This document shows positions 18,804-59,339 of a stretch of 64,000 nucleotides of DNA, one piece after another. The notes under the pieces are model-generated. The model saw nothing but the letters and a program-made list of their open reading frames with translations, was not told the DNA's origin and did no database searches. The position numbers and the translations under genes are program-made. Every line of letters starts with the position of its first letter. Within the stretch, counting starts at the first letter, position 1. Origin of the DNA: Lampris incognitus (lineage: Eukaryota; Chordata; Actinopteri; Lampriformes; Lampridae); contig NC_079212.1 in the NCBI RefSeq assembly GCF_029633865.1, positions 103,393,584-103,457,583 of the forward strand. Direction: 5' to 3'.

Positions 18804-19880
18804 TTACCGGGGTGATTTAGGGGCTTGCAGTGGATCTACGTAACTTTTGATGCAAAACATGCTACACAGCAGGTAGTTTTTCAGGTGCTTCCGAAAAGTT
18901 TGGTCCCTTAAGCCGTAGACAATAGGACTGACAAACCTTGGGAGGATCTGGACGAAGATATAGAGAGCAAAGACCAAATTTCTATAATGTGCTGGATACA
19001 TATACAACAGAAACTGCTTTAACAAAGGGGCTATATAGGTAAGCGTACACAACAGTAGTTGAAAACCATGGAGTAAGATAGTATTCCTGGCCTTCTTAAT
19101 ATCTTTTGCAGCTGCTGTAGCAGCAAAAATTATGTGAAAGTATGTGTAGAGGATCGTTAGCCATACTATAACTAATAACACTATGTAGGATGCTTGTCGC
19201 TTCTTTATTATCCAGGAGTTATGGAACACCGTGTCCCTTTCACAGAAGATTCGAGAGTAGAAGGTCTCCAGAGGCTCTGTGACAAGTTTGAAAAGCAGAT
19301 CAGGTAAAACTGTGATAGCTCCTATGGCCCAGATCAAACCGATCAGAATGTGTGTTCTCTTCACTGTACAGAACTCGGCATGGTGAAGTGGGAAACAAAT
19401 GGCAATGTAGCACTCTACTGCCATGCTAGCTAGATTTAATGGAGTGTTGACAGTGGTGAGACTGGCAATGGAAAGAAGGAGGCAGCAGAAGGAGACATTG
19501 AGTGTGTAGAAGGTATAGCTAAGGATAAAGAGGGATATTGCCACCGTGAGCTGCATCATGTCATTGACCACCAAGTGGATGTATAGGATATAACGAGGGT
19601 TCACTTTAAGTATCTAGAAGAAAGGAAAAGGAAACAAAATAAGAGTTTGTAAGTAAGAAATTGCTTATCCATTTTCATCTCTCCTCTCACTTATCTCTCT
19701 ACCACCTAACTTTGTTTCATCTCTTACCTGATGTTTGTTGAAGATGTGAAGGAGAATACCATTGACATAGTTGATGGTGAGACTTAGTGTAAAAACAAGC
19801 ACATTCCTTGCCACGGCTGTGCTGAATGTGTCCCTGTACCTCACAGTCATTGAGGCATTACCACCAGATGAGTAATTCAT
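18804..19880 (-). CDS. OR1: odorant receptor 131-2-like, seven-TM GPCR, two coding exons
   Basis: Coding exons are 19880-19728 (51 codons) and 19613-18804 (269 codons plus stop), giving a 320-aa receptor. The 114-bp intron has GTAAGA and TTCTAG ends and falls in phase 0 after HIFNKHQ. The ATG at 19880 is the first one after a likely upstream acceptor at 19910. Exon one holds the N-terminus with an NXS site (GGNASM) and TM1. Exon two holds TM2-TM7: VNPRYILYIHLVVND, a TM3 end of [10 protein letters not shown] in place of the usual DRY box, [15 protein letters not shown] at TM6, and PIVYGLRDQTFR at TM7. These are signatures of teleost or131-type odorant receptors, plasma-membrane G-protein-coupled receptors of sensory neurons. 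No break is seen. OR2 is its closest relative here, about 84% by eye. Confidence 0.92.
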
Positions 19881-32948: not shown

Positions 32949-34037
32949 TTATATACAAGACACTGTATTATCAGAGTGTTTTTGAGCAGATTGAGGATTG
33001 ATTCTTTTGCTTACTGTACACAGTAGATGGTTTTTCAGATACCTCAAAAATATTTGGTCGCGTAAGCCATAGACAATAGAACTGACAAGCCTGGGGAGGA
33101 TCTGGACAAAGATGTAGAGGACAAAGATCAGATTGACATAATGTGCTGGATACATGCGCTGCAGAAATTGTCGTAACACAGGAGCTATATAGGTGAGCAT
33201 ACACAGCAGCAGCTGGAAACCATGGAGTAGGATGGTATTCCTGGCTTTCTTAGCATTTGTGGCAGCTGCTGTAGCAGCAAAGAGAATATGAAAGTATGTG
33301 TAGAAGATAATTAACCATACTAGAACCATCAGCAGTATGTAAGACACATCCCTCTTCTTTATTATCCAGGAGTTATGGAACACTGTGTCCTTTTCACAGA
33401 AGATTCGAGAGTAGAAGGTCTCCAGAGGCTCTGTGGCAAGTTTGAAAAGCAGATCAGGTAAAATTGTGATAGCTCCTATGGCCCAGATCAAACTGATCAG
33501 AATGTGTGTTCTCTTCACTGTGCAGAACTCAGCGTGATGAAGTGGGTAACAAATGGCAATGTAGCACTCTATTGCCATGCTAGCTAGATTTAATGGAGTG
33601 TTGACGGTGGTGAGGCTGGCAATGGAAACGAGGAGGCAGCAGAAGGAGACATTGAGTGTGTAGAAGATATAGCTAAGGACAAACAGGGCTATTGCCACCG
33701 TGAGCTGCATCATGTCATTGACCACCAAGTGGATGTATAGGATGTAACGAGGATTCATATAGAGTATCTAGAAGAAAGGAAAAAAGATTAATAGTTTGTG
33801 ACAGTAGAAAAAGTGTACCCATTTTCATCCCTTCTTTCACTGATCTGTTCATCACTTTTTAAACAATGTCAAAATATCTCTTACCTGATGTTTCTTGAAG
33901 ATGTGAAGGAGAGTACCATTGACATAGTTGATGATGAGGCTTAGTGTAAAAACAAGTACATTCTTTGCCACAGCTGTGCTGAATGTGTCCCTGTACCTCA
34001 CAGTCATTGAGACATTACCACCAGATGAGTAATTCAT
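32949..34037 (-). CDS. OR2: odorant receptor 131-2-like, seven-TM GPCR, two coding exons
   Basis: Coding exons are 34037-33885 (51 codons) and 33767-32949 (272 codons plus stop), 323 aa. The 117-bp intron has GTAAGA and TTCTAG ends and phase 0 after FKKHQ, exactly as in OR1. Exon one starts MNYSSGGNVSMTVRYRDTF (glycosylation site NVS) and covers TM1. Exon two has MNPRYILYIHLVVND (TM2), MAIECYIAICYPL at the end of TM3, [20 protein letters not shown] (TM6) and SIVYGLRDQIF (TM7). The C-terminal tail differs from OR1 after LLC. The frame is intact. It is a teleost or131-type odorant receptor; ligand unknown. Confidence 0.92.
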
Positions 34038-35368: not shown

Positions 35369-35850
35369 CCAGCACAAACTGACTGCTAATAATCAGACAT
35401 TTACTGTGGTCAATTCAAGACAGCTTTCAGAGGTGGGTCAGAGGTCTAATCTGGTCTGTATATTTAAGCTGGTATTTCAGGCTAGCATGATCTGATTTAC
35501 TGGAGTCATACCTAATTTTAAAGCGCAGAGATTCTCCTCTTTAAAATGAGCATTGGCTTTCCATCCTAGCACAAACTGGATGCTAATAATGAGACAATTA
35601 TTGTGGTCAATATCAGACAGCTTCCAGAGGTGGGTCAGAGGTCAAATCTGGTCTCTATATTTAAGCTGGTATTTCAGGCTACCATGATCTGACTTACTGG
35701 AATCATACCTCATCTTAAAGCTTGTGTTCTCCTCTTTAAAAGGAGTATTGGCTTTCCATTCCAGCATAAACTGGATGCTGGATGCTAATAATGAGACATT
35801 TAGTGTGGTCAATATCAGACAGCTTCCAGAGGTCGGTCAGAGGTTAAACT
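35369..35850. repeat. Tandem repeat, unit about 196 bp, about 2.4 copies
   Basis: Units begin AGCACAAACTGACTGCTAAT (35371), AGCACAAACTGGATGCTAAT (35568) and AGCATAAACTGGATGC (35763), periods 197 and 195. Each contains CAGAGGTGGGTCAGAGGT and TTTAAGCTGGTATTTCAGGC. The units differ by a modest number of substitutions. The third is cut short near 35850. A small GGATGCT duplication lies in the third unit. Confidence 0.88.
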
Positions 35851-36432: not shown

Positions 36433-36739
36433 ATGTTTGTAAGTGATGCATTTATTAGTTGGCATGATCCATAGGAAATCAGCTTCACAACTGTTTTTCC
36501 CAGTTAACCTAAAAGCCCCCATTTCTCTTAATGTCAGTTGTCAGAGGAGGATTTTTATTTAGAAATGTGTGTTTTATCATGGTACCACACATTACTTAAG
36601 TACAATGAAAACACCTATTGAAAGCTAACATCAAAATTAAATCAGTAATTTCATGTGATATGTTAAAGTTCTCATAAAAGCAATATAAGTTTACATTTTA
36701 GGGCAATTAGTTAAAGCTCATGTAACACAGCATGACATA

Positions 36740-37345
36740 CAATCGGTGCAGAGAATAAGCATATCGACAACAAATTAAAATGGGATATCAACACCAACTC
36801 CAACATCAAAAAGGCACAAAAACGACTTTACTTCCTGATGCAACTTAGGAAGTAAAGGGTCAATGAAGAGCTAATGGTCCAATTTTACACCACCATCATC
36901 CAAAGCATCCTCACATCCTGCTTTACAGTCTGGTATGGATCATAAAAACCAAGCTCCAACGGACAGTGACAAAGGCCTCCAGAATCTTTGGACGTGACCT
37001 CCCCCCAGATATCTCTCTTCACCACCCACACAGACAACCAGGCTGGCAAGATCACCCAAATCAGCCAACTAATTCTTTAAACTCATGCCATCAGGAGGAG
37101 GCTATGGGCCATTCAGTTAACAAAAAAAAAAACACCTGTTGCAAAGAGATAGAACTCTCAACTCCATCCCCTCCAAACCATGGCCCCCCATACCCCTTAA
37201 TGACTATGTTATTGTTGTTGTGTGTGTCCTATGAGTATTTGCTGTATGTTTGGTATGCTAACATGGAGCTGCCATGCTGTACTGTGAATAAATACTGCCA
37301 ACCTGGATGTGTGGCAGTAAAGCTTCTTGAATCTTGAAGGTCATT
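36740..37345 (+). mobile_element. L2-clade LINE 3' remnant (copy A)
   Basis: Broken frames read KKAQKRLYFLMQLRK and FYTTIIQSILTSCFTVWYGS, then FTTHTDNQAGK-like, typical of the end of fish L2 ORF2. The 3' end is close to GTAAAGCTTCTTGAATCTTG (37318-37337). It is matched in copy B. Confidence 0.72.
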
Positions 37346-37607
37346 CAAGATAGTGTTATTTACTTGTTGAAAAAAAAAAATCCTGCCTGAGATTCAAAAG
37401 ATATTTCACTGGCAGGAAACTAGTGGTGATAGGCTAGACATTAGGCCTGGAGACATGGGGCTGTAATTTCCTTGGTAGTTTTCTAGATCAGCACAATTTG
37501 TTGATAATATTACCCACTGGGAGAAGGGTGACATTGGACTTTAGGGGATAAAAAAAAAAACACCAAACAAGGCTGTCATGGGATTGTATGTTCAGTGTTC
37601 CCTTTTC

Positions 37608-40600
37608 TTATAAAGGTCTCTTAAATATGGTTTGTGGATGAATGGTTATGGTTACTTTACATGTCAGATACCTCCTCAGATAACTCCTGAGCTTCTTGTC
37701 ACGTAAGCCATAGATAATCGGACTAATGGATCTTGGTAGAATCTGTATAATGATGTAGCAAGCAAAGAGGGAGTCCACATAGTTTTCTGGTGACCATTTC
37801 TTCAAAACTGGTGTGAACATGGGGCCTACATATATAGTCATACACAACAGCATTTGAAATCCGTGGAGAAGGATAGTATTCCTGGCCTTTTTAGCATCCT
37901 TTTTAGCTGCCTTGGCAGTGAATAGGATCCTGAAATATGTATAGAATAGGATGAACCAAACTATGACCAGAAACACGACATAGCAGGCATTCTTCTTCTT
38001 GGTGAGATGGGGACTAGGAAACACATTGTGCCGTAGACAGAAGACCTTGGAGTGAAAAAACTCCTGGGGTTCAATAGCCAGGGTGATGAAGAGATCAGGC
38101 AGTACAGAGGTCATGGAAGTCACCCAGATCAAAACGATAAGCAGGTATGTTCTTTTGACCGTACAGATCTGGGTGCAGTGGAGGGGGAGACAGATGGCAA
38201 TGTAGCACTCTACTGCCATGCAAGCCAGATTCAATGGGGTGTTTTCGGTGGTGAAAAGTGTGATTAGGACAATGGTGCAACAGAGGGACACATGGAGTGT
38301 GTACATGGTGTAACTGAGGATGAAAAGGAAGACTGTTAGCATCAGCTGGATCATATCATTGACCACCAGGTGGATGAACAGGATATAGCGAGGGTTCATG
38401 TTGAAGACCTGGAGGAAAGAAAGGAAAGGAAATGAGAGACAAGGGCTAGAAGGAGAGCTTAAATGACTAAATGAAAAATATTGAAGGGTGGATGGAGAAT
38501 ACAGCATAGATGGAAGAAGCTTGGTAAAGTGTGAGGAAGAGAGGGATTTCTTAAAGGAATGATTATTACTGAAAATGTACTTTCGGATATACTTTTTTCA
38601 GACCCCTTTAACCAACTTTGTAGCTGCATATTTATAAGAGTGCCATGTAAAGTATGGCTTAGAATTTTTCTTTTTTTTTATGGAGCACCTTTCCAGATCT
38701 CAAGGTGGCTTAACAATAATAAGTATCAATGCAACACAAACAGCAACAATCAGACATATTCAGAATATGGTGAGATAGAACGAGAGACGCAACACTGTAA
38801 GAAGAGATGAGTCTTTAAATTAGATTTCAAAGATAAATTGGGGCAATTTCACAGATGCTTTGTGGGAGTGAATGACAGTTTTAGGAGCCATGAAACAGAG
38901 CCCTGCCACCCATAGAAGACAATCTGAATGTGGGAATGGAGGGTAAACCAGCACTGGAGGACCCTGCTGTACTGGAAGGAACCTATGGATGAAAAAGTTC
39001 AGAAAAATACTGTGGGGCAAGACTATGTAGAGCTCTGTAGGTCAGGAGAAGAATTTTGTAATGAATACGGGATGAAACTGGTAATCAGTGGAGAGAAGTA
39101 AGGATGACGGTGATGAAAGCTGAGGGTTTGGTGTGTCATCTCCTCCTCCCTCTGCAATGGCCCATCTACTAGGCACTGGCCCCTGATCCCCATCATCACC
39201 TGTACTATTCCCACTCACAAAGAGCAATTTTATGTCCTTTAAATTTTCCTTTAAAGGACATACACTCACTAGCCACTTTATTAGGCACACCTGTCCAACT
39301 GCTCGTCAACGCAAATTTCTAATCAGCCAATCACATGGCAGCAACTCAATGCATTTAGGCATGTAGACATGGTCAAGACGATCTGCTGCAGTTCAAACCG
39401 AGCATCAGAATGGGGAAGAAAGGTGATTTAAGTCACTTTGAACGTGGCATGGTTGTTGGTGCCAGACGGGCTGGTCTGAGTATTTCAGAAACTGCTGATC
39501 TACTGGGATTTTCACACACAACCATCTCTAGGGTTTACAGAGAATGGTCCGAAAAAGAGAAAATATCCAGTGAGCGGCAGTTCTGTGGGCGAAAATGCCT
39601 TGTTGATGCCAGAGGTCAGAGGAGAATGGCCAGACTGGTTCGAGCTGATAGAAAGGCAACAGTAACTCAAATAACCACTCATTACAACCGAGGTATGCAG
39701 AAGAGCATCTCTGAACGCACAACACGTCGAACCTTGAGGCAGATGGGTTACAGCAGCAGAAGACCACACCGGGTGCCACTCCTCTCAGCTAAGAACAGGA
39801 AACTGAGGCTACAATTTGCACAGGCTCACCAAAATTGGACAATAGAAGATTGGAAAAACGTTGCCTGGTCTGATGAATCTCGATTTCTGCTGCGACATTC
39901 GGATGGTAGGGTCAGAATTTGGCGTCAACAACATGAAAGCATGGATCCATCCTGCCTTGTATCAACGGTTCAGGCTGGTGGTGGTGGTGTAATGGTGTGG
40001 GGGATATTTTCTTGGCACACTTTGGGCCCCTTAGTACCAATTGAGCATCGTGTCAACGCCACAGCCTACCTGAGTATTGTTGCTGACCATGTCCATCCCC
40101 TTTATGACCACAGTGTTCCCATCTTCTGATGGCTACTTCCAGCAGGATAACGCGCTGTGTCATAAAGCTCGAATCATCTCAGACTGGTTTCTTGAACATG
40201 ACAATGAGTTCACTGTAGTCAAATGGCCTCCACAGTCACCAGATCTCAATCCAATAGAGCACCTTTGGGATGTGGTGGACCGGGAGATTCGCATCATGGA
40301 TGTGCAGCCGACAAATCTGCAGCAACTGCGTGATGCTATCATGTCAATATGGACCAAACTCTCTGAGGAATGTTTCCAGTACCTTGTTGAATCTATGCCA
40401 CGAACGATTAAGGCAGTTCTGAAGGCAAAAGGGGGTCCAACCTGGTACTAGCAAGGTGTACCTAATAAAGTGGCCAGTGAGTGTATGTCCTTTGATTGTA
40501 TGATACTTCTTCCCATGTGTCGAGACTTTACCTCCCTTTTATGGTTCTGTCTATACTCCATTTATCTTAGCTTGTCTATCTTTATGCCAACAAGTAAATA

Positions 40601-41922
40601 ACTCTTGTTACATTCTTGGTTTCTGACTATTGCCTCTCCCTTGCTTTGGTTCGATTAACACTTTAATTAAACCACATCTGAATTTACATCCAGTGTCATG
40701 GAGGATTATTTACACAATTTTACCATTGACTGAACAAGAAGATTAAGTCAGGAAAGAATACCGGTTTCCTTCTATATAATTAAAAAAGACTTTTGTTTTA
40801 CAGCTGAAGCTGGTGAATCACTGTCATTTCCCCAGGCACTTGCTACAATACATGTTTGAATCGAGGCAGTGAAAAGCCCTGAAGGTGCTGACAGTTTCAG
40901 ACATGCATGTACTTACTATGAAAATGATGGAAATGCAATTTCATTGCCTATGAGAGGCTCTCTAAATGACTGGAACATCCTGACATTGAGTAACAAGTAT
41001 TATGCAAAGATTTATTTCTAAAGTGCATCTAAAAGTACTTAAGAAATCTAGTGGCATTCACCGATTATTTTTCTTCTAGATTTGTTCATTTGTCAGATCA
41101 AAATTTAAGAGTGGTGCAGATCTGTTGCACATGAATGAACACAAATAGCCCAGTTCCTCAGCTGTTTCTTTTGAGGAGTACAGGTGTTGTGTTGTGCAGG
41201 TACAAATGGGGGAAAATTGATAAAATGCACTTATCAAATACAGGTAGAACTTAACATACTGCACTTTTGAAACAATTTCCCCCATTAGACAATGACAAGA
41301 TTCAGAATTGGCACTCTTTATAGTATCTTTTTGATGTATTAACTATGCTTGAAGGTATTCAGATTGGAGTCATACATTTGACTTTCATGTAAGAACAATT
41401 TTGGGCTGTTTAGGGCATTTTGTGAATGTGACAGTGATTTCTTTTATGGGCTTCTTGTAAGTTGCAAGTAGGCAACTTTCTTCTAACACAATTTCTTTAT
41501 ATTTGGTGAAATTCCCATATATATGCATAGATTAGACGATATGAATTTTGTCAGGCAAACTCATACACACATGAAACTGGTATGGAGGGAAGGGTTACAG
41601 GAGAGAAGGAAAAAGCAGAGCGGGGGGGGGGCATTTTTTTAGGGATGCATGGCCTTGTACTAGTAACCAGTCTAGCCTCACAACGTTTCCTTCCCTTGAG
41701 TGCCTAACTCTCTTGCCAGCTGTTATCATTCCTGATTTGATAATGGAAATGACAAGAATGGAACAGGCAAACCTGGTGTTTACGGAAGGTGTGAATGAGG
41801 CTTGCATTGATGAAATTGATGGAGATGCCGATAGCCACAACGATTACATTCTTGGTCACAGCTTTGGTGTAGGAGTCCCGATAGTTCACAACCACAGTTA
41901 CATTAGTGGATGACACGTTCAT
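37608..41922 (-). CDS. OR3: odorant receptor 131-2-like, seven-TM GPCR, Tc1 element in its coding intron
   Basis: Coding exons are 41922-41773 (50 codons) and 38408-37608 (266 codons plus stop), 316 aa. The start is the first ATG after an acceptor at 41949. Exon one: [20 protein letters not shown], two glycosylation sites and TM1, ending FRKHQ at a GTTTGC donor. Exon two begins [11 protein letters not shown] after CCTCCAG. Motifs: [13 protein letters not shown] (TM3), [15 protein letters not shown] (TM6), [19 protein letters not shown] (TM7 and tail). The intron is 3,364 bp and holds a Tc1-like element (39263-40483) plus a dispersed repeat. About 22 residues differ from OR4 (about 93% identity by eye). 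The frame is intact. The long intron with an insertion could affect splicing; nothing in the sequence shows that it does. Confidence 0.9.
38660..39240. repeat. Dispersed repeat in the OR3 intron (also in the OR4 intron)
   Basis: The block begins near GGAGCACCTTTCCAGATCTC and includes CCACCCATAGAAGACAATCT and GAGCTCTGTAGGTCAGGAGA. It resembles a non-autonomous repeat spread in fish genomes (recalled, not searched). The equivalent stretch in copy B is about 56490-57060, so it predates the duplication. Confidence 0.45.
39263..40483 (+). mobile_element. Tc1/mariner transposon, DD36E (Incomer-like)
   Basis: Thirty-base inverted repeats, CACTCACTAGCCACTTTATT... at 39263-39292 and its complement at 40454-40483, differ at two positions. 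The TA target duplication lies at 39261-39262 and 40484-40485. The body is 1,221 bp and holds one transposase gene. Copy B of the duplication has no insertion at the equivalent place, so it came after the duplication, or the B copy was lost. The preserved ends and near-intact gene indicate a young copy. Confidence 0.95.
39410..40451 (+). pseudogene. Tc1-type transposase with one frameshift
   Basis: The protein starts [20 protein letters not shown], with a paired helix-turn-helix DNA-binding region (about residues 1-120: [20 protein letters not shown], then GRK). The catalytic residues are WSDESRF (first Asp, about 39870), [11 protein letters not shown] (second Asp, about 40145) and [11 protein letters not shown] (Glu, about 40256). 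Thirty-six residues separate the second Asp from the Glu, so this is DD36E, as in the family named Incomer, rather than the DD34E of classic Tc1. One extra base in the C-run at 40097-40100 shifts the frame; otherwise the 345-aa-class gene reads through to GGPTWY and stop. Confidence 0.92.
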
Positions 41923-43337
41923 CTTTTGGTGACTCAATGTATTAAAGTCTACAGTAAAACAAGAAAAAGAAGGGTTTTTTCCCCCAATAAATATTGAAAT
42001 AAGCATGAAACAAAATATTCAAAATATATGCAACCATATAGTTACTTTTGACATTTTGACCATTCATGCATCTCTTCTAAATCATCTACTTTACAATTTT
42101 TTTTTACATTTTTACGTGACCTTTACCCAGTAAGTCCCCTAAAGCTTCAGAATCTCTTTTGCAAGGATGACATGGCCCAGGTGGCAGCTTACAAACACAG
42201 TACAAATTGACTGACTCAATAAAAAAATTCAGTAATTTAGTGTCTTAATATCACATTTAATATTATACTGTTACGTCGATAAATTAAAATGTGCATATGC
42301 CATTTTGACAGTCATAGTTTTACACAATTTTTCATACTAACCTCTACTATATCTGTTAATATGATTTCATTTCCAAACCCCCCCCCCCCAAAACTAAATA
42401 ATGCATAAAGCACACTAAATGCTTCGTATGCACTGGTTTGATTACATAAAACATTTTGCAAGTGATTTACTAAACTTCAGAGATATTTTATCTTGCCAAG
42501 CTAGACAGCACTCATTAGTTTAACCCTCAGAGTTCCTGTATTCTACAACTGAGAGCTTTTTATTATGAGTGTTTTAAAAAGGACATTTCTGAAAACACCA
42601 AAATGGAATTTCCCACTAGGTACTTTGTAGAGGAATTATGGCCCTTTTTTTTTTCCTTTCCCAGTTGGAACAGTATACAGTATAGAGTTTGTGTACCAAA
42701 CACAAATTCCCCTGGCCTTGGTCGTGTGGCTAATAAAACAATCTAATCTAATTTATACATATGAGCACTTACCTCAAATGTCAGGTGGGGGAGTCAACAT
42801 AGCATAATAAAAACAAAAACACAGTAATTAGAACATGCGATTATAGCTATTATTGTAGCTTGTTGAAAGATTAAAGCATGAACATATTTCACGACAATTG
42901 TTCTTTCTACAACTGTACTTTGTGTGTTTAAAACTGTTAAAAATTGTCCTCGTGACTAGTGATAAAATATGTTAAAGACTGGGTGCAAGAGTGTTTTCAT
43001 TCTAAATTTAAAAAAAAAATCCCATCCAACATATCTTAGCTCAATAAAAATGTTTGAAAATTTACTCATTGCAAAAAAAAAAGAGCTCAGCAAACCAAAC
43101 TTAATAGAATTACTGTAGTGTTGGGATAATCAGCATGTGCACCACCACCGCCGCTGCACACCTAGGCAAGGAAACTCAAATACCAATATACAATACCAGT
43201 CAAATCAGGACAATATTTTTTACTCTTTAAAAAGCCATTCTGCACTACAGTCATTGCAGTGCTGCTGTCAGATCCACTCTGATGTACTTTGTATAGCAAT
43301 ATTGACTATGCATAAAATGCAGACAGTTGATACTTAC

Positions 43338-43408
43338 TTTGCAACAGCAATTAGATCAAGATGTTGATATGACCTGCCTGCAGATTTGAAGGCACGGCTC
43401 TATATGTA
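43338..43408 (-). promoter_or_regulatory. OR3 promoter and leader exon
   Basis: Minus-strand TACATATAGAG at 43408-43398 is a weak TATA-like box. A leader exon from about 43375 would end GTTGCAAA at 43338 before a strong GTAAGTATC donor. The acceptor (ACTGTAG) is at 41949, giving a 1,389-bp leader intron. The same elements are conserved in copy B. Confidence 0.6.
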
Positions 43409-43935
43409 CACAGGAGGACCATTACTAATCAACAGGAGGGGTGTGTTGTATTGATGTGCGCATGCATGCATATTGCCAGACAATGCATGTTTCTGTTTGT
43501 GTCTGTTAATGTTGATTAACTTCTCAATGAAGTACAAATTAAAGATTAACTAAACCCTAGACCATTTTTGCGAGCTTGCTGAAATCTATAGGGTAAAAAC
43601 CATGTAAATGTTAAAACATGCCAGGCTGGTCTTGGTGCTATGTGATGATAGCATAGCAGGATAAACATGGCTGCAGATAATGATACTGATAATTGCTCTT
43701 TTTGATTTAGGTTTAGCAGCACATCTGTTAGCTTTGACAGACAGAGCAGGCACTAACAATTGCCAATAGTATGCTGGGTTTTTTAGTACACCTACATCCA
43801 ACAGAGCGATTAATAATGTTATCTGCAGCTGTGTTTAAAACAGCAGTAAAAACATTTTTTGCTTTAACTTAATCAATATGAACTACATGTTGATTGTACA
43901 GTGTAATGACTATAGAATAATGACACCTTCGGCAT
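43409..43935. other. 5' flank of OR3, no gene
   Basis: The duplication ends near 43552. The remainder is AT-rich with no frame or repeat that I recognise. Confidence 0.5.
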
Positions 43936-44960: not shown

Positions 44961-45183
44961 CCATGGCGGCGCTCCGTTTACTCCGATGCAAAAGTTTCAG
45001 ATTTTCTTCAATTTCGAGTTGGTTTTTTGGACTTTTAGCTAGTTATGGTTAAACGTTGTGCCTGGGGCACTTGTAACAGTGACACTCGTTACTTAGCAAA
45101 ATTAACTAAGGGGGGGCTTAGGGGGGGCTTAGCGAAGGGTCAATTGGAGGAAAAAAATAAGTTCCGATAAGCCTCCCATTCAG
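44961..45183 (+). repeat. Second copy of the THAP promoter and start
   Basis: 44961-45094 repeats 44417-44552 (CCATGGCGGCGCTCCGTT through the start MVKRCAWGTCNSDTRYL), here with the intact Cys pair. 45130-45183 repeats 44778-44832 (GCGAAGGGTCAAT, then CCGATAAGCCTC). The sequence in between is shorter than in the first copy, so this copy lost the rest of the THAP exon. It is cut off by a gypsy scrap at 45184. Confidence 0.8.
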
Positions 45184-45770
45184 CTTGGTGAACACCGTGG
45201 CGTGAGTGAGTGGCTCGAACTTGGAACTCATAAGGGGGAGTGGATATTTATTTTTCACCGTGATGGCATTTAACTGTCGATAATCTATGCAAGGCCTCAG
45301 GCTGCCCTCCTTCTTTGCCACAAAAAAGAAGCCCGCTGCCACCGGGGAAGACGAGGGCCTAATGATTCCTGAGGCCAGGGACTCTGATATAATTGCGCAT
45401 AGACTCCTTCTCCGGGACGGAGAGGTTATACAGCCGACCGGTGGGAAGGGCGGCCCTGGGAAGGAGATCTATGGCGCAATCATAGGGACGGTGAGGGGGG
45501 AGAGAAAGTGCACTGTCCTTACTAAATACAGGGGCTAAATCGTGATATGGGAGGAACACGAGTGAGATCCATGGGAGGAGGCACGGGTCTGAGACCTCTG
45601 GACGGAGAGTGGGCGGAGCGAAGGCAGTTGGCATGACACGCAATGCTCCAACCCAAAATCCGCCCAGTAGACCAAGAGATGTGGGGATCGTGCCGTTCCA
45701 ACCACGGTCTTCCTAACACCAGGGGCGCTGTGGGGGCGTGCAAAACCAAAAAACGCATATAGTAAGGGAA
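45184..45770 (-). mobile_element. Ty3/gypsy fragment (protease end to RT start), broken fossil
   Basis: Minus strand: the end of the protease region (about 45750-45640), a linker, and the first part of reverse transcriptase ([12 protein letters not shown] and [15 protein letters not shown], about 45340-45260). It is related to the element at 204-4791 but is a separate copy. No LTR is seen. It is a fragment with a few breaks. Confidence 0.8.
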
Positions 45771-46149
45771 ATATATGAAAATCTGGGAACTAAATCCTTA
45801 CCAATAAATTTCTTCACCAATGTATTTGTAAGGGTGTGTAACAGCATGTATTAAAATGTTGAAATTCAACTCCCGTGGGAAACCTCGTAAAAAACTGTTC
45901 AAAGTTGGGGCACCCATAACCGATTTTCAAAAAATCGAAAATGTTTAATTTGGCCTTAAGTAACTTGTGAGGGGTCAAATTAGGGGTTTTTCACGATTCT
46001 GAGTTGATTGCAAGCATTAGTTTTTCACCCAAACCACTCCTTGGTGGAAAAGCGGCCACACCTACTTTTACATTTAAATTTTAAGTAGCTTTATTAGTTT
46101 ATTTCAATATCTTGCATAATACTTAGAGCAAATACTGATCCACTATATC

Positions 46150-49100
46150 AAATGCTTCAGGAGTCAATGTCTGAGTCTTCTCCAGACTTAACACCATCAT
46201 GAATACAATTCTTGCATGTAATGCCTTTACAAACTCCACATGCTGAGATGCATTTGACACCATTCTTCTTGCAGCTGCACCGCCGGTTGCTGCAATCTCC
46301 GTTACAATTACAGCTTGTGAACTGGAGTACCTCCTAGTTTTGGAACTGGCTTATCACCGTCAACACCTAATGTCCATCCATAGTCATTGGGGTCCAAAGA
46401 CATGCTCTGTAGAAGGATCCAGCCCCGGGTTTGTAGATAGGCACGGAGAGAATGCTGTGCAGCTGCACCCTCTGTTGGAGATAGAGTCTCTGGTTTGATC
46501 AGCCCAGCCGCCGCTTTCTGTGAGAACATGTATCGAATTGCACCCAAAGTAGTACCTGGTGCATGGTAAATGTACTGGAAGATCGCAGTACCAGCCTGAA
46601 TCACTGCATCCTTAGTAGCTTGTATGTCAAGGAAGATGTCCATGTGTTCATCAATGTACCCTGCACAAAACCTGCAAAAAATGCACTTTGAGTTTTTCAA
46701 ATAGAGTTGTTTTCCCATGGCCAGCGATTGCAGAAACCATATCACAACCAGTGAAGGCATGACAAAAGAGCAGGTAGTGTCTCTGTCTTTCAGAGAGAGC
46801 TTCTTGGATCCTTCTGATATCATAAGAGCCCTTCGATGTGGTTAAGAAGAGTGGATGGTTGGTGCTTGAGCTATGGTGCACCAGCATTACCAGCACATCT
46901 GCGTCTTCTGCCCGCACCTGAAAATAGAACAAGATATGCAAAGCGTGTTGAACTATGCAAAAACAGATAACAATTGTCAAGTTATTCAACAATGTGAATA
47001 CTCTTCTTTTTAAAGTAATCATAGCTGAAGAAAGTAAAATACCTACACAAATGTTACTGACCTCAACAGAGTGATCTGTAGCAGCAGACAATGCCTCTCT
47101 CACAATTGAAGTGTCAGCATCATTGTCACATTGCTCCACGGTGATGTGAAGTTTTCGGAATGTTGAAGAGAGGAGATGGATGAGCTCACTCTTGTTATGA
47201 GTGTTGTCCAAGAACTTTGCTCTTGGTGTCCAATGTATCATATCCGGTCAAATCTGGAGATCACAGCATGACTTCTTGGTACGCCGGATGTGGTCGTGAT
47301 CTTTTGGTGATCTGCTATTGCCATCAAAGACCACGATGATCTTCTGAGAGTGACGGCCAAGACACTGCATGTAGCTCAGGTAACTGTTGGCAATCTCCTG
47401 CCAAGTCTGACCTTGTTCCCATTTCACCATGTAGAGAAGCCATCCGCCATCAACCACCAGAGTGGAGCAGGGTTGGTTAGTGAGGTCAAGCGGATCAGTT
47501 AACTCCTTCAGGCTAGTCTTGGAAAAGCCTGCCTTGTTATCCTTGTTCATTTTCTGATCTTTGTTGTTGAACAGGGACAATGGGAAGGGAGTCGGCTCCT
47601 ACTCTAAGCTTGTCTCAACTGTCATATCCCGTTGGGCCAAAATGATGAGTCAAGGTGAATCTTCTTCTCGTTGACTTTGGGAATCTTTACTTCACCTCCA
47701 TGGTCGATGTCGCTGACCGTCCATCCAGCTTTATCTGAATCTCCCTCCCTACTTCAGCTGCTCTCTCTGCATTGACTGGGTCATCTCCTGTGCCTGTGAA
47801 TCCTGTTGAGAAAGACACAAGCAACTACTTGTCTTGATTGTGGTCGAAGGGGTTGTTCTCCTCAAACCATTTGAGGGCAAGTTCAATCGCTTCAGCATCT
47901 CGCTTCATCTGTGTTTTGGCAAGGTCTCTGTGGAGTGGACCATGTTCCTTGACACCTTCCTCCATGTGCTGGTTGACATTGGAGAAGTTTTTGAGAGTGA
48001 GCACCCAGCACTTGTTGCCAGAATCACTATTTCTCATCCTCCCTCTGCTCAGTCCACCTTCTGCTTGGCTGCCTTCATTAATGTCAGCTCAATACAGATG
48101 TCACACCAGGTGCCAGACCAATCATGGCTAGAGTAACGGGCAACGTGGTTCCCATGGGCAGTGAAACTTTCTAAGGTCTCCTTGTAAGCAGGCAAAGTTT
48201 CAAGTTGCTTCATGAATTAACAGTACAGCCGTGCGCCCTTGGCATATTGGTGATGCCCCGCAGCTGCAAATATTTCCAGCATCCTGGTAACAATGCAGGA
48301 CAGGTGCCCATTGTGATCTGCAAGCCGTTCAGTTCTGATGAAGATCTTGATGACATCTACCATGTAGTGGTACTGCACCCAGGGTGCAGGCGTTCTTCCT
48401 CCTTCGGCAAGTCTTTTAAAGGTTTCTTCAAACCTCTGTTCAAACACTGCAACTACTGGGTCTGTGTGTCTGGCTCCCATCTTCGCATCAGCTACCTTCT
48501 CCATGAAGGTCCTTCATCTGATCTATCCAGCTGATCTGGATAGATCAGCTGGATCAGCTCTAGTAGCCCAGAATCCTCCATGACATTACCCAAGGATCCA
48601 AGGTAGGACTTTAGCAGGTGAAATCCGCCCAACCGTGGAATGACGGGTAGATTTGCCTGCTTTATGATGTCCACATTCTTGAGCCAGATGGGGAGATCAA
48701 ACGTCACTATAGTGACTTTGTCTTCAGAGAGCTGCATGCACTCTTTGAGAGTGGTGAAGATGGTGTTGTGGTCATTAGGGTCACCTTCGATGACTGGGAG
48801 GAAGTCGATCTGCGTCCTTTGCTTGGTATCTGCATGGATACGCTTCATCCAGCCATTCCAGTTTGAGTGTGGGAACTCAGGATCCTGGGCTTTGATCACC
48901 CACCCTGCTGCCCAGAGTGTATCGCCAGCAGTGAGGAGTGGCTGGTCTTGTGTCATAGAGGAGGAGAGCTCAGCGATTGGAAGAAATGTGATGGTGTTTA
49001 TCCCTGTCTGTTTCCTGTTGGTGAATGGAAGAATCTTCACTTCAGCTTCCTTCAGGAGCTTAGCTTTGTCGAATGCCTTCAACTTCACCCTGTTGACAGC

Positions 49101-50758
49101 TGCTGTCGTCCACGGATCTGCCAAAGGTGGTGCCGGAGAGGTGACTTTGATCCAACCTATTGAATGAAAGGGAGTGTTTCCGTGAATAGAGACAATGTTT
49201 AAATCTGTATTGTCTCCAACAAAATAAGTGACTGTATTGTTTGTTTCCCCAACCTCCATGGAGATCACCTGGTCGTCACTCCATATTTCACTTTCACTGG
49301 CTGTCGTAACTGATAGATCCTCAAGTGCAGCATCAACCTCAACCTCATCATCTGTCTGATCATCAGTTTCTTCAATAATGGTAACAAGAGTGCCAGAAAT
49401 ATCAGAGATGACATCTCCGTTCCCATCATTAAGGAAGCAGTATTTGTAGTTTTGTGTCTCTGAGTATGACTCAGTGTATCCCAGCCGGTGTAACTTGTTG
49501 AGCATCCATTTTGACCCAAATCTATGATCCAGTTGTATGGCAAGCCCCATCTGGTATGGCAATACTCCTGACTGAGGCCGACAGGCCTTTATAAAGTACT
49601 TCCCCCAAACAGCTACTCTTTCGTCTGTCTTCACTATCGGTCTCAAGAACATCTGAAGGCTCTCAGGAACAAGTGCCAGCTGACTATGGATATCAGTCAT
49701 ACTGTGTGCAGTGGGGTATGACTTTGGATCTTGATCAATTGTGGCAATGTCGTTGCATATGAACTTTAGTGCAGTCTTTATGATCTGAGTCTTCTCATCT
49801 CCAAGCTCAAGATTAGCATGATGCTCTCGCAGAATGTTGCTGGTGTTATCTTTGAGGCAGAGCACAGCTGCCCTTCTCTCCTGTGATGTGAAATACAATG
49901 TGTCATGGTATTTCTCTTCGAGTTGCTTCTTTAGCCATTTCTTTGAATAAGAGAGGCTCTTATCTGGTGACTGGTCAAACTGCTGCAGCTTTCGTGGACT
50001 TGGTCAAGTGTCATCACCCCATGCTCAAGTTCTAAGTCTAACCATTCGCAGAGTTCATTAAAAACAGCCTCTCGCTCCTCATCCATTTTCTTCTGTCCTC
50101 TCTTCCTCTGTCCTCTATCTTCAGTCTCGGAGTAATGACTACCTGTTTCAAAAAGAACTTTGCAGCGCAAATGATACAGGGTTTCTTCTGCTACCAAGTC
50201 GTTGATCCCTTCCAGGCGCCCAATGACTTCAGTGCCCCAATCGTCCCTGCGACTCTGTGCTGTCTTCAGCAAGCTTGTCTTCAGTCTATCTGCAGTCAAA
50301 TTATCCGGCACTCTATATCTCTTTCTAGCAGCCTCTGGGTTATTTGTGTAGAGATGAGCGGGTTGGTTGCAAAGAATGCATACATTCTTGTACAGAAGTT
50401 GAACGGACCGTGAACTTGTAGAACTGCATGCAGTAGATGCACTGAACTCAGAGCAAGTGTGTCTTCTCTTCATCTTTGCTGACTCTTTCTCCGCCTTTGA
50501 TGCATGAGCTGACTTCGTGGTGACCTCGACAAACTTGTTGTAAAAATAATTTGTACACATTATGTGGTACCTAAGTCTTCCTACATTTTGAGCCTCCTTC
50601 ATACGCTCCAAAATTGTAGAATTTTCAACTGCTTCTGCATGTGCCACAAAAGTAGAGTAGCCTTTAGGAGTTGCCTGTGTGAGTCTCTGAGCTGGTGTCT
50701 CCAGGCCCTCACAGATGAAGCAATTGAGCATAGGTGGAGGAGTAATATCTTCATCCAT
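46150..50758 (-). pseudogene. Academ-like transposase/nuclease gene with one intron
   Basis: It starts [20 protein letters not shown] with paired Cys/His motifs ([17 protein letters not shown]). The central region (49898-48217) has [19 protein letters not shown] and [20 protein letters not shown]. The nuclease part matches the order of FEN1/XPG motifs: TLVVDGGWLLYM (about 47455), IVVFDGNSRSPK (about 47330), EQCDNDADTSIVREAL (about 47110), VRAEDADVLVML (about 46900) and LFCHAFTGCDMVSAIAGHGK (about 46740). A Cys-rich tail follows, CNCNGDCSNRRCSCKKNG then CGVCKGITCKNC. A clean intron, 46918-47060 (GTCAGT...TTTTCAG), sits before the fourth motif. At least five frameshifts (near 49975, 48490, 48040, 47245, 46680 and 46315) break the gene. 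Relatives are widespread in animals as uncharacterised proteins. Confidence 0.68.
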
Positions 50759-51069
50759 ACTGCTACACTATAATGTCCTACAAAGTAAAAAGGGTAGAAT
50801 ATAAGTTATATTATATGAAGTATTTAGTAGTAATATAAGCATTTTTGTGATATTAAAGACAACCTCTGTCATTTGCAGGAATAGCTTCTCTCTAATATAT
50901 TCTATTGAGGATGAAAATAGGAGATCAGCTTTACAGTAGCGTTAACTGCAAAAATCCTCTCTAAGACAATACACCACTGTAACCTAGCTAGATAGCTAAT
51001 GGGGCAGTCAGCTAGCATTTAAGAACATAAAATAGTCATCAGGTGCAGTTTGGGGTGTGTAATACACAC

Positions 51070-51202
51070 GTGGGAGTTGGCTAACTAACCATGTTACTTA
51101 CTGTTAGCCAGCTAACAAGTAAGCTAATGACAAATTTAGTGGGAGTTAACGTTAGATAGCTAACCATGTTATTTACTGTTAGCTAACTAACACGTAAGCT
51201 AA
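51070..51202. repeat. Two ~60-bp tandem units upstream of the Academ-like gene
   Basis: GTGGGAGTTGGCTAACTAAC (51070) and GTGGGAGTTAACGTTAGATA (51139) each lead into ACCATGTTA, TTACTGTTAGC and AAGCTAA; offset about 69 bp. The TTAGCTAACTAAC motif resembles that of the palindrome-rich stretch at 61020-61350. Confidence 0.7.
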
Positions 51203-51557
51203 GTTGACAACTTTTATGTTACTTATGCATATTATCAATGTAGTGACATGAAATATTTCAAGTTCTTAAAAAAAGATGTGGATAATACTTACGTTTCAGA
51301 AGTAGTTTGTTGTGTCCGTCAATGATCAACATAGAAGAAGGTTGCAAATGGCTTCAGCATGTCTGGCACTAGCTAACTCCAAACTTCCTCACTTTGAGTG
51401 CCAACCAACTACAACAACTACCACTAACCAATAATTAGGCCTATTTACCATGGCAAATAATAATAAAAAAGAAACTAATTAAGCAACTTTTTAATTTACA
51501 TGTACCCAGCAGTGGGAAGGGGGTGGGGGGTCTTGGGAGGGGGGCCTGTGATGATCA

Positions 51558-51757
51558 NNNNNNNNNNNNNNNNNNNNNNNNNNNNNNNNNNNNNNNNNNN
51601 NNNNNNNNNNNNNNNNNNNNNNNNNNNNNNNNNNNNNNNNNNNNNNNNNNNNNNNNNNNNNNNNNNNNNNNNNNNNNNNNNNNNNNNNNNNNNNNNNNNN
51701 NNNNNNNNNNNNNNNNNNNNNNNNNNNNNNNNNNNNNNNNNNNNNNNNNNNNNNNNN
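51558..51757. other. Assembly gap (200 N)
   Basis: Exactly 200 N, the size often used for gaps of unknown length. It falls between the Academ-like 5' flank and the DDE_Tnp_4 gene, so element boundaries there are hidden. Confidence 0.99.
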
Positions 51758-51759
51758 CA

Positions 51760-52271
51760 CAAGAGTGATACTAGACTGCACAGAGATCCGCATCGAGACA
51801 GCTAGTTCGAAGGTTTTGAACACCATGACATACTCCCATTATAAAAGTAACACTACACTGAAATCCCTAATTGGGATCACTCCCTCAGGGTCAGTTAGCC
51901 TGGTAAGTAATCTATACACAGGATGTATTTCTGATAAGGAGATAACTAAGAGGTCAGGTGTTCTGGACCTCTTAGAGTCAGGTAATGAGGTCATGGCCGA
52001 TAAGGGCTTCCTTATCAAAGACATGATCGATGAAATAGATGTAACACTTGTCATCCCTGCATTTTTAGGCACAAGTGGACAGTTTAGCTGTGATGAGCTC
52101 ACAGACACACAGAGTATTGCTGGCTTGAGAATACACGTCGAACGGTCAATAAGACGCATAAAGGAGTACCACATTTTTGATGGAGTCATACCCCTTTCAC
52201 TAAGCGGAACAGTCAACCAACTGTGGGCTGTGTGTGCTCTCCTAACAATTTTTCAGGGACCACTGTTTTAA
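51760..52271 (+). pseudogene. DDE_Tnp_4 (Harbinger/ISL2EU-type) transposase, C-terminal half
   Basis: The open frame comes straight out of the gap. VILDCTEIRIETASSK carries the first catalytic Asp, VMADKGFLIKDMID the second (about 51993), and AGLRIHVERSIRRIKEYHIF the Glu (about 52140). SHYKSNTTLKSLIGITPSGS and SLVSNLYTGCISDKEITKRS are also typical of DDE_Tnp_4. The reading frame has no internal stop and ends at TAA 52269-52271. The N-terminal half is missing from the assembly. It likely belongs with the THAP exon at 44500. Confidence 0.85.
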
Positions 52272-54440: not shown

Positions 54441-54478
54441 AGGCTGTGGATAAGCACTTTGGTCATACTGATTTAATG
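54398..54478. repeat. 43-bp tandem duplication at the edge of duplication copy B
   Basis: AGGCTGTGGCTAAGCACTTC at 54398 and AGGCTGTGGATAAGCACTTT at 54441 start two units of about 38-43 bp. They straddle the junction between the L1 ORF1 remnant and duplication copy B, so the second unit may have arisen with the joining event. Confidence 0.75.
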
Positions 54479-54559
54479 TGACATGTTAAAGTTCTCATGG
54501 AAGCAATATGAATTTACATTTTAGGGCAATTAGTTAAAGCTCATGTAACACAGCATGAC

Positions 54560-55165
54560 ATACAACCGGTGCAGAGAATAAGCATATCGACAATAATTTA
54601 AAATGTGATATCAACACCAACTCCAACATCAAAAAGGCACAAAAATGACTTTACTTCCTGAGGCAGCTAAGGAAGTAAAGGGTCAGTAAACAGCTACTGG
54701 TCCAATTTTACACCACTATCATCCAAAGCATCCTCACATCCTGCTTTACAGTCTGGTATGGATCACAAAAACCAAGCTCCAACAGATAGTGAAAAAGGCC
54801 TCCAAAATCATTGGATGTGACTTTCCCCCACAGATATCCCTCTTCACCACCCACACAGACAACCAGGCTGGCAAGATCACCCAAATCAGCCAACTAATTC
54901 TTTAAACTCATACCATCAGGGAGAGGCTATGGGCCATTCAGTTAAAAAAACAAAAAAACCTGTTGCAGAGAGATAAGCACTCTCAACTCCATCCCCTCCA
55001 AACCATGGCCCCCCATACCCCTTAATGACTATGTTATTGTTGTTGTGTGTGTCCTATGAGTAAATGCTATATGTTTGGTATGCTAACATGGAGCTGCCAT
55101 GCCGTACTGTGAATAAATACCGCCAACCTGGATGTGTGGCAGTAAAGCTTCTTGAATCTTGAAGG
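54560..55165 (+). mobile_element. L2-clade LINE 3' remnant (copy B)
   Basis: The duplicate of 36740-37345, with the same end (GTAAAGCTTCTTGAATCTTG). Present before the duplication. Confidence 0.72.
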
Positions 55166-55431
55166 CCATTCAAGATAGTGTTATTTACTTGTTGAAGAAA
55201 AAAAAATCCTGCCTGGGATTTAAAGGATATTTCACTGGCAGGAAACTAGTAGTGATAGGCTAGACATTAGGCCTGGAGACATGGGGCTGTAATTTCCTTG
55301 GTAGTTTTCTAGATTAGCACAATTTGTTGATAATATTACCCACTGGGAGAAGGGTGACATTGGACTTTAGGGGATAAAAAAAAACACCAAACAAGGCTGT
55401 CATGGGATTGTATGTTCAGTGTTCCCTTTTC

Positions 55432-58400
55432 TTATAAAGGTCTCTTAAATATGGTTTGTGGATGAATGGTTATGGTTACTTTACATGTCAGATACCTCCT
55501 CAGATAACTCCTGAGCTTCTTGTCACGTAAGCCATAGATAATTGGACTAATGGATCTTGGTAGAATGTGTATAATGATGTAGCAAGCAAAGAGGGAGTCC
55601 ACATAATTTTCTGGTGACCATTTCTTCAAAGCTGGTTTTAACATGGGGCCTACATATGTAGTCATACACAACAGCATTTGAAATCCATGGAGAAGGATAG
55701 TATTCCTGGCCTTTTTAGCATCCTTGTTAGCTGCCCTGGCAGTGAATAGGATCCTGAAATATGTATAGAATAGGATGAACCAAACTATGACCAGAAACAC
55801 GACATAGCAGGCATTGTTCTTCTTGGTGAGATGGGGACTAGGAAACACATTGTGCCGTAGACAGAAGACCTTGGAGTGAAAAAACTCCCGAGGTTCAATA
55901 GCCAGGGTGACGAAGAGATCAGGCAGTACAGAGGTCATGGAAGTCACCCAGATCAAAACAATAAGCAGGTACGTTCTTTTGACCGTACAGATCTGGGTGC
56001 AGCGGAGAGGGAGACAGATGGCAATGTAGCACTCCACTGCCATGCAAGCCAGATTCAACGGGGTGTTTTCGGTGGTGAAAAGAGTGAAGAGAATGATGAT
56101 GCAACAGACGGACACATGGAGGGTGTACAGGGTGTAACTGATGATGAAAAGGAAGACTGTTAGCATCAGCTGGATCATATCGTTGATCACCAGGTGGATG
56201 AACAGGATATAGCGAGGGTTCATGTTGAAGACCTGGAGGAAAGAAAGGAAAGGGAGAAGAGACAAGGGCTAGAAGGAGAGCTTGAATGACTAAATGAAAA
56301 ATATTTAAGGGTGGATGGAGAATACAGCATAGATGGAAGAAGCTTGATAAAGTGTGAGGAAGAGAAGGGTTTCTTAAAGGAATGATTATTACTGAAAATG
56401 TACTTTCGGATATACTTTTTTCAAACCCCTTTAACCAACTTTGTAGATACATATTTATAAGTGCCATGTAAAGTATGGCTTAGATTTTTTTTTACATTTT
56501 TTTTTATGTAGCACCTTTCCATATCTCAAGGTGGCTTAACAATAATAAGTATCAATGTAACACAAACAGCAACAATCAGACATATTCAGAATATGGTGAG
56601 ATAGAACAAGAGAGGCAACACTGTAAGAAGAGATGGGTCTTTAAATTAGATTTCAAAGATAAATTGGGGCAATCTCACAGATGCTTTGTGGAAGTGAATG
56701 ACAAAGTTTTAGGAGCCATGAAACTGAGAGCCCTGCCACCCATAGAAGACAATCTGAATGTGGGGATGGAGAGTAAACCAGCACTGGAGGACCCTGCTGT
56801 ACTGGAAGGAACCTATGGATGAAAAAGTTCAGACAAATACTGTGGGGCAAGACTATGGAGGGCTTTTTAGGTCAGGAGAAGAGTTTGTAATAAATACAGG
56901 ATGAAACTGGTAATCAGTGGAGTGAAGTAAGGATGACGGTGAAGAAAGCTGAGGGTTTGGTGTGTCGTCTCCTCCTCCCTCTGCAATGGCCCATCTACTA
57001 GGCACTGGCCCCTGATCCCCATCATCACCTGCACTATTCCCATTCACAAGGAGCAATATTGTTTCCTTTATAGATTCCTGGTTTTCAATTTGTCATTGAT
57101 TTCATGATACTTCTTCCCATGTGTCGAGACTTTACCTCCCTTTTATGGTTCTGTCTATACTCCATTTATCCTAGCTTGGCTATCTTTATGCCAACAAGTA
57201 AATAACTCTGTTACATTCCTGGTTATGACTATTGCCTCTCCCTTGCTTTTGGTTCGATTAAAACTTTCATTAAACCACATCTGAATTTACATCCAGTGTC
57301 ATGGAGGATTATTTACACAATTTTACCATTGACTGAACAAGAACATTAAGTCGGGAAAGGTCATCGGTTTCCTTCTATATAATTAAAAAAGACCTTTGTT
57401 TTACAGCTGAAGCTGGTGAATCACTGTCATTTCCCCCAGGCACTTGCTACAATACATGTTTGAATCGATGCAGTGAAAAGCCCTGAAGTTGCTGACATTT
57501 TCAAACATGCATGTAGTTACTATGAAAATGATGGAAATGCAATTTCATTGCCTATGAGAGGCTCTCTAAATGACTGGGACATCCTAACATGGAGTAACAA
57601 GTATTATGTAAATAATTATTTCTAAAGTGCATCTAAAAGTACTTAAGAAATCTAGTGGCATTCACCGATTATTTTTCTTCAAGATTTGTTCATTTGTCAG
57701 ATCAAAATTTAAGAGTGGTGTAGATGTCTAGCATATGAATGAACACAAATAGCCCAGTTCCTCAGCTGTTTCTTTTGAGGAGTACAGGTGCTGTTTTGTG
57801 CAGGTACAAATGGGGGAAAATTGATAAAATGCACCTATCAAATACAGGTAGAAGTTAACATACTGCACTTTTGAAAAAATGTCCCCCATTAGACAGTGAC
57901 AAGATTCAGAATTGGCACTCTTTATATTATCTTTTTGATGTATTAACTATGCTTGAATTTATTCAAATTGGAGTCATACATTTGACTTTCATGTTAGAAC
58001 AATTTTGAGCTGTTTAGGGCATTTTGTGAATGCGACAGTGATTTCTTTTATGGGCTTCTTGTAAGAAGAACATTAAAGTTGCTGTAGGCAACTTTTTTTT
58101 AACACAATTTTGTTATATTTGTTGAAATTCCCATATATATGCATAGATAAGACGATATGAATTTTGTCAGGCAAACTCATGCACACATGAAACTGGTATG
58201 GAGGGAGGCATTACAGAGGAGAAGTAAGAAGCAGAGCGGGGGGGCATTTTTTTTAGGGATGCACGGCCTTGTACTAGTAACCAGTCTAGCCTCACAACGT
58301 TTCCTTCCCTTGAGTGCCTAACTCTCTTGCCAGCTGTTATCATTCCTGATTTGATAATGGAAACAACAAGAATGGAACAGGCAAACCTGGTGTTTACGGA

Positions 58401-58536
58401 AGGTGTGAATGAGGCTTGCACTGATGAAATTGATGGAGATGCCGATAGCCACGACGATTACATTCTTGGTCACAGCTATGGTGTAGGAGTCCCGATAGTT
58501 CACAACCACAGTTTCATTAGTGGATGACATGTTCAT
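55432..58536 (-). CDS. OR4: odorant receptor 131-2-like, seven-TM GPCR, duplicate of OR3
   Basis: Coding exons are 58536-58387 (50 codons) and 56232-55432 (266 codons plus stop), 316 aa. The 2,154-bp intron has GTTTGC and CCTCCAG ends in phase 0 after FRKHQ. The start is the first ATG after an acceptor at 58563. Exon one begins [20 protein letters not shown]. Exon two has [51 protein letters not shown] and [19 protein letters not shown]. The C-terminal 30 residues are identical to OR3. Changes gather at TM2-TM3 (around SVCCIIILFTLF) and in the loop after TM6 (GPMLKPALKKW), where ligand contact is plausible. The frame is intact; function as in OR3. Confidence 0.92.
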
Positions 58537-59124
58537 CTTTTGGTGACTCAATGTATTAAAGTCTACAGTAAAACAAGAAAAAGAAGGGTTTTTTTCCCAA
58601 TAAATATTGAAATAAGCATGAAACAAAATATTCAAAATAAATGCAACCATATAGTTAGTTTTGGCATTTTGACCGTTTAGGCATCTTATCTGAATCATCT
58701 ACTTTACAATTTTTTTAAAAAAACGCAGTGTTTTCATTCTAAATTTGAAAAAAAAATCCCATCCAACATATCTAAACTCAACAAAATTTTTTTAAAATGT
58801 TCTCATTGCAAAAAAACACAAAAAAACCAAGAGCTCAGCAACAAATGTTAATAGAATTACTGTCGTGTTGGGATAATCAGCATGTGCACCACCAATTAAG
58901 ACTATACAAACAGCCACTGCACACCTAGGCAAGGAAACTCAAAGAACAATATACAATACCAGTCAAATCAGGACAATATTTAAAACTATGATAAAATAAT
59001 TAATGTTTACTCTTTAAAAAGCCATTTTGCACTACAATCACTGCAGTGCTGCTGTCAGATACACTCTGATGTACTTTGTATAGCAATATTGACGATGCAT
59101 AAAATGCAGACAGTTGATACTTAC

Positions 59125-59195
59125 TTTGCAACAGCAATTAGATCAAGATGTTGATATGACCTGCCTGCAGATTTGAAGGCACGGCTCTATATGTA
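59125..59195 (-). promoter_or_regulatory. OR4 promoter and leader exon
   Basis: Same layout as OR3: weak TATA-like TACATATAGAG (59195-59185), leader exon ending GTTGCAAA at 59125, GTAAGTATC donor and an acceptor at 58563. The leader intron is 562 bp, against 1,389 bp in OR3. Confidence 0.6.
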
Positions 59196-59339
59196 CACAG
59201 GAGGACCATTACTAATTAACAGGAGGGATGTGTTGTATTGATGTGCGCATGCATGCATATTGTCAGACAATGCATGTTTCTGTTTGTGTCTGTTAATGTT
59301 GATTAACTTCTCAATGAAGTGCAAATTAAAGATTAACTA

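Follow-up and report, generated by a model that had tools for sequence, protein, structure and literature searches.

A decayed multi-copy DNA transposon with a FEN-like nuclease region in Lampris incognitus, most likely of the Academ superfamily

Results

Architecture and state of the element in the window

We analysed a 64,000-nucleotide stretch of the Lampris incognitus genome (contig NC_079212.1, positions 103,393,584 to 103,457,583; hereafter the window), in which the original prediction had placed an Academ-like element with FEN/XPG-type nuclease motifs, a CXC tail and an intron at 45771–51557. The element is real and lies on the minus strand as predicted, and comparison with copies elsewhere in the genome establishes that it is mobile DNA and not a host gene. 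Its boundaries had to be redrawn: the 3′ end is at 45760, not 45771, and the other limit, 51557, marks where an assembly gap (51558–51757) starts and is not an end of the element. We interpret it as a decayed cut-and-paste DNA transposon that most likely belongs to the Academ superfamily, in its nuclease-bearing, AcademX-like branch (probability about 0.85).

From 50758 to about 46160, the minus strand carries a chain of open pieces that occupies all three frames. The pieces follow one another as two CxxC...YHxxC modules, a central region, a piece containing WSGTWCDICIE, five nuclease motifs and a ten-Cys tail (Table 1). Two N-terminal Cys/His modules of the kind predicted were found, the first with CFIC from 50722 followed by YHIMC, and the second with CILC from 50380 and YHLRC from 50176. 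The predicted ten-Cys tail is likewise present from 46315, which is the only match to its spacing pattern in a six-frame translation of the window; its tenth position varies among 26 genomic copies, being C in 10, G in 11, S in one and a stop codon in another, with three copies uncovered there. The predicted intron has a GC content of 29.9%, compared with 46–47% in the flanking exons, and is also 144 nt long in the genomic copy L130. It has no counterpart in a distant relative, L159, in which the acids of motifs 3 and 4 stand 22 residues apart, exactly as in the spliced window protein.

Compared with copies that have continuous frames, the frame changes in the window copy reflect at least five lesions; one more frame change, which follows the TGCD motif, may represent a second intron. 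Together with three in-frame stops (Table 1), these frame changes indicate that the window copy is dead. At a frame change in the central region lies a near-perfect palindrome (48515–48551; 16-nt arms at 94%, 5 nt apart), at which the genomic copies L130 and L144 read differently and which looks like a template-switch mutation.

Table 1. Parts of the transposon copy and its expected target site in the window
Feature	Coordinates	Strand	Basis or remark
Transposon copy, visible part	45760..51557	-	Alignment to 26 genomic copies
N-terminal coding piece, ATG at 50758, two CxxC...YHxxC modules	49931..50758	-	
503-aa open piece, central region; TFDLPIW (D codon 48698-48696), RLGGFHLL (48635-48612), likely DDE core	48492..50003	-	
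Piece with HDWSGTWCDICIE (E codon 48090-48088), likely last DDE acid; stop 48219-48217	48055..48513	-	
Linker region, one in-frame stop 47827-47825	47689..48088	-	
FEN/PIN-like nuclease, first exon part; stop 47250-47248	47062..47598	-	
Intron, 144 nt, GT-AG, phase 0	46918..47061	-	
FEN/PIN-like nuclease, second exon part, TGCD..AGHGK	46680..46917	-	
Conserved C-terminal region preceding the tail, in another frame	46308..46690	-	
Ten-Cys CXC-type tail	46205..46315	-	
3′ terminal inverted repeat, ending ...CCCTTACTA	45760..46069	-	Outer bases 45760-45770 by end comparison
TAT, expected site (candidate) of the 3-bp target-site duplication	45757..45759	-	Gypsy homology from 45758

Genomic copies, target-site duplications and terminal repeats

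The 1.48-Gb source genome was searched with an 801-bp query from the nuclease region. Forty matches were scored out of 83 candidates: 16 at 95–100% identity (15 over nearly the whole query, including the window, and one partial) and 24 at 82–83%. Twenty-six of the 39 matches outside the window were retrieved, 14 belonging to family A and 12 to family B. The 5′ end was readable in 19 of the 26, and the others (L128, L132, L136, L138, L140, L145 and L148) were excluded from the count of target-site duplications (TSDs). An exact 3-bp TSD is present in 18 of the 19 copies with both ends, the exception being L139, which lacks the 3′ end motif. L143 and L144 have the same flanking sequence (99% over 7.8 kb) and, counted once, leave TSDs in 17 of 18 independent copies. 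The duplicated sequences include TTC, CCA, CAT and GTA and are thus not only TWA.

The termini are mostly TAGTAAGGG in family A and TAGTGAGGG in family B; the 3′ end carries the inverse, giving the pattern TAGTG...CACTA. Terminal inverted repeats (TIRs), 78–94% identical, were found in all nine copies tested. In family B (three copies) they span 157–185 aligned bp from the first base, and in family A (six copies) 288–295 aligned bp that start at about base 31; the outer ends of family A have TAGTAAG in common in inverted orientation, and the bases between are less alike. The long copies measure 5.9–6.6 kb, carry these repeats and encode one long protein. Gathering relatives, as the original prediction had proposed, thus yielded the termini and the TSDs and bore out a mobile, multi-copy element; the 40 matches in its own genome rule out a single-copy locus.

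These comparisons also place the ends of the window copy. The 5′ end of L130, when inverted, matches 45771–46069 of the window at 91% over 300 nt. The visible part begins at L130 position 323, which still lies within the 5′ terminal repeat, 3 bp from its end; about 320 bp, the 5′ terminal repeat, are therefore missing in or behind the gap. A 37-nt inverted match (51504–51468 with 46069–46104; 1 of 1000 shuffles as good) was considered as the terminal repeat and rejected, because the multi-copy data show it to be internal, with the true repeat outside it.

Selection and a core-less derivative

Differences between L130 (family A) and L144 (family B) at first, second and third codon positions number 65/41/136 over 1889 nt and 19/21/62 over 924 nt, and a further between-family count of 10/11/30 again has a third-position excess. 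The protein was under selection at the codon level. In one nuclease exon, the mean pairwise distance is 0.032 within family A (15 copies), 0.013 within family B (12 copies) and 0.118 between them.

Eight of the 12 retrieved family B copies (L142, L145, L146 and L148–L152) have one deletion in common, corresponding to L144 3732–5125, which takes out TFD, GGFH and IEQ (CIEQTLM) and leaves the nuclease motifs and end repeats in place. The central region is kept in L143, L144, L147 and L153. The deleted copies are apparently a non-autonomous subfamily: this derivative lost the DDE-like region and yet spread, and therefore presumably moved in trans. Because family B is young, with its mean distance of 0.013, we infer that the derivative probably spread on proteins from full copies.

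A second, more distant Academ-like lineage resides in the same genome, represented by L159 (2282–6491, colinear but broken) and L160; L159 is about 35% identical to the main lineage. Motif-pattern searches gave five matches, two of which (L154 and L158) belong to this second lineage, and three of which (L155–L157) look like chance and were rejected. No relatives were confirmed in viral contigs (searched with the central, C-terminal and nuclease pieces and two motif patterns), in bacterial or archaeal genomes (one motif pattern), in phages (the nuclease) or in plasmids (the 503-aa piece).

The putative nuclease region

All five FEN1/XPG motifs that had been predicted were located in order: VVDGGW (47457–47440), VVFDG (47334–47320), CDNDADT (47130–47110), AEDADV (46911–46894) and TGCDMV (46752–46735). 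The corresponding D codons lie at 47451–47449, 47325–47323, 47121–47119 and 47115–47113 in the first exon part and at 46905–46903, 46899–46897 and 46743–46741 in the second. When five FEN blocks are placed in order on the window protein, the best-scoring placement coincides exactly with these five sites; an equal or higher score is obtained from 11 of 1000 shuffles and from 15 of the 391 unrelated archaeal open reading frames (ORFs). The element thus resembles FEN1/XPG in its seven acidic positions, which are distributed in order over five motifs and spaced 42/68/2/22/2/52, compared with 53/72/2/19/2/61 in the archaeal FEN1 of L064. A seven-acid pattern at FEN spacing with a tolerance of ±15 is matched by 5 of 5000 shuffles, 4 of 391 unrelated ORFs and 78 of 98 archaeal FEN ORFs; the window protein fails the pattern at ±10 and ±12, and the tolerance was not fixed beforehand. 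On these counts, the pattern appears to exceed chance moderately. The seven acids are kept in 26 or 27 of the 27 copies (one copy is uncovered at two positions), and L159 keeps all of them (D18, D60, D128, D130, D152, D154 and D206 of alignment A1, which has 50 invariant columns). This conservation across lineages is the strongest evidence for the proposed FEN/XPG likeness.

Profile support for that likeness is weak. In HMMER, with a profile built from 103 archaeal FEN1 ORFs, the window protein ranked 3 of 2001 against shuffles, and in hhalign 1 of 100 shuffles beats the window protein. Several results weigh against the assignment. The hhalign score of the copy profile against archaeal FEN1 is matched by 25 of 300 shuffles, that with L159 added by 7 of 300 and that of L159 alone by 19 of 300; adding copies or the second lineage thus did not bring the FEN profile score clearly above shuffles. 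There is no significant overall sequence similarity to FEN1/XPG. Among the 24 element pieces scanned against Pfam, some of them repeatedly, none passes the cut-off, and XPG_N reached only E = 0.11 on one window piece, with no such match for the spliced piece. NCBIfam returned no match for the element, and PDB returned only weak, unrelated chains (best E 0.14) and none with alignment A1. Single-sequence AlphaFold models had predicted local distance difference test scores of 35.9 for the nuclease region and 37.2 for a second region, and both are unusable.

The best Pfam hint for the nuclease was NYN_YacP (PF05991), which matched residues 37–91 of the joined L159 nuclease pieces at 18.7 bits, compared with a cut-off of 24.6. 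Its E value of 0.0018 is modest because 24 element pieces were scanned, and the first and fifth nuclease motifs lie outside the matched stretch. NYN belongs to the same wider PIN/FEN fold group. We conclude that the region is a putative nuclease of the PIN/FEN group and FEN-like by its fifth motif. Of the predicted FEN/XPG-type nuclease, then, the motif order and the conservation of the acids between lineages held up, whereas a significant XPG/FEN profile match was not obtained.

A likely DDE core

Upstream of the nuclease, the D of TFD is conserved in 14 of 14 covered copies, the H of RLGGFH in 14 of 15 and the E of IEQ in 16 of 16, the remainder of the 27 copies having no match at those sites. 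Both L159 and L160 have the same positions, except that L159 carries N in place of D. Because these positions are conserved, and Academ is listed among the DDD/E superfamilies in a passage of PMC9587614, we read the D...H...E region as a likely DDE core. One observation counts against this reading: the first catalytic D of the putative core was not placed. The lowest E value of any element piece was that of ING on the 503-aa piece (E = 0.00013, 22.9 bits compared with a cut-off of 23.9). The ING match, just below its cut-off, was taken for a coiled-coil-like chance match and rejected.

Neighbourhood in the window

A decayed Gypsy relative (45172–45758) adjoins the 3′ end of the transposon, and a Harbinger-type transposase fragment (51762–52271, plus strand; DDE_Tnp_4, E = 3e-37) lies directly behind the assembly gap. 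The window also holds a Gypsy element with a chromodomain and long open frames (206–4430, plus strand) and a Tc1-like transposase (39359–40129, plus strand; HTH_Tnp_Tc3_2). Two duplicated stretches, 36648–43552 and 54471–59339, are 87–95% identical and carry seven-transmembrane (7tm) receptor genes, with a frame at 37608–38597 that is olfactory-receptor-like by Pfam and its homologue at 55432–56268; further 7tm frames lie at 18804–19613 and 32949–33767. A tandem array at 35369–35848 consists of 2.4 copies of a 197-bp unit.

Discussion

The element is placed in Academ by its features and by published descriptions, not by sequence similarity. Kojima reportedly distinguished an AcademX lineage of the Academ superfamily in 2020. 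In passages of PMC10045372, AcademX is described with a nuclease and TSDs of 3 or 4 bp and AcademH with a helicase and TSDs of 9 or 10 bp, and this difference in TSD length is linked to the encoded helicase or nuclease. With its 3-bp TSDs and its putative nuclease, the element fits AcademX, whose description it also resembles in having the nuclease beside a likely transposase, in its TIRs and in its length range; it is likely a new member. AcademH belongs to the same superfamily in print but differs in its helicase and its longer TSDs, and no helicase match was found among the element pieces in Pfam scans. Curated bivalve Academ elements have a mean length of 5565 bp in a passage of PMC10294476, and one in PMC4746887 reports Academ from zebrafish, medaka and stickleback. 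The original prediction regarded this as the least-described system of the window. However, a passage of PMC4455052 cites a description of Academ in Repbase Reports (Kapitonov and Jurka 2010), and what we describe is a little-studied but known kind of element, not a new kind of system. The passages that we found on Academ nucleases describe no biochemical test, a statement that applies to those passages and not to the literature as a whole.

Could the element be a DNA transposon of another superfamily, such as EnSpm or Harbinger, with a PIN or NYN nuclease of another kind producing the FEN resemblance? A 3-bp TSD is not unique to Academ and is also made by EnSpm and Harbinger, and the best Pfam hint was NYN_YacP, itself below the cut-off, rather than XPG. 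However, the TAGTG...CACTA ends are the reverse of CACTA-type ends, the TSDs are not restricted to TWA, and no element piece matches the PIF/Harbinger family DDE_Tnp_4, although the adjoining Harbinger fragment matches it readily. Moreover, the presence of TGCD as a fifth motif and of D.D at motif 4 speaks for a FEN-like arrangement rather than an NYN one. We consider an origin outside Academ unlikely. A domesticated host gene is a negligible prospect: the codon-position bias does reflect selection on the protein, but the window copy has several frame changes and stops, and the existence of matches at 40 sites, with a TSD at 18 of the 19 that were tested, refutes it for the window locus.

The original prediction also raised the possibility of a transposase whose chemistry relies on a structure-specific nuclease. 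Such a FEN-like catalyst, with the upstream D/H/E region in some other role, would be compatible with the unplaced first DDE acid, with the lack of any Pfam DDE match for the 503-aa piece, and with the spread of the eight family B copies that retain the nuclease but not the D/H/E region, which action in trans also explains. The listing of Academ among DDD/E superfamilies in PMC9587614 and the conservation of TFD, GGFH and IEQ, both inside each lineage and, apart from one N, from one lineage to the other, make this very improbable. Returning to the Academ interpretation, in which a separate DDE-like region lies upstream and a deletion that removes this core keeps the nuclease, the nuclease is probably accessory.

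We infer all of the biochemical steps that follow. The Cys/His modules would bind the transposon ends, and a DDE-type, RNase-H-like core would cut the ends and join them with a 3-bp stagger. The FEN/PIN-type metal nuclease would trim or nick strands at excision or integration intermediates, its role being trimming or second-strand cutting, and the CXC tail would bind DNA. A stronger version, which we regard as possible but doubtful, is a two-nuclease mechanism in which the fused PIN/FEN-fold nuclease does essential strand processing, either cleaving the second strand during excision or removing flaps during integration. To our knowledge, such a mechanism has not yet been shown for any eukaryotic element. 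If it were true, the fused nuclease would set a stagger of 3 bp rather than 9–10 bp. The element is of interest for its young family, which has clear ends, TSDs and a core-less derivative and in which the nuclease exons of 12 copies differ by 1.3% on average. Together, the young family and its core-less derivative allow a direct test of what a flap-endonuclease-like part does in DDE transposition.

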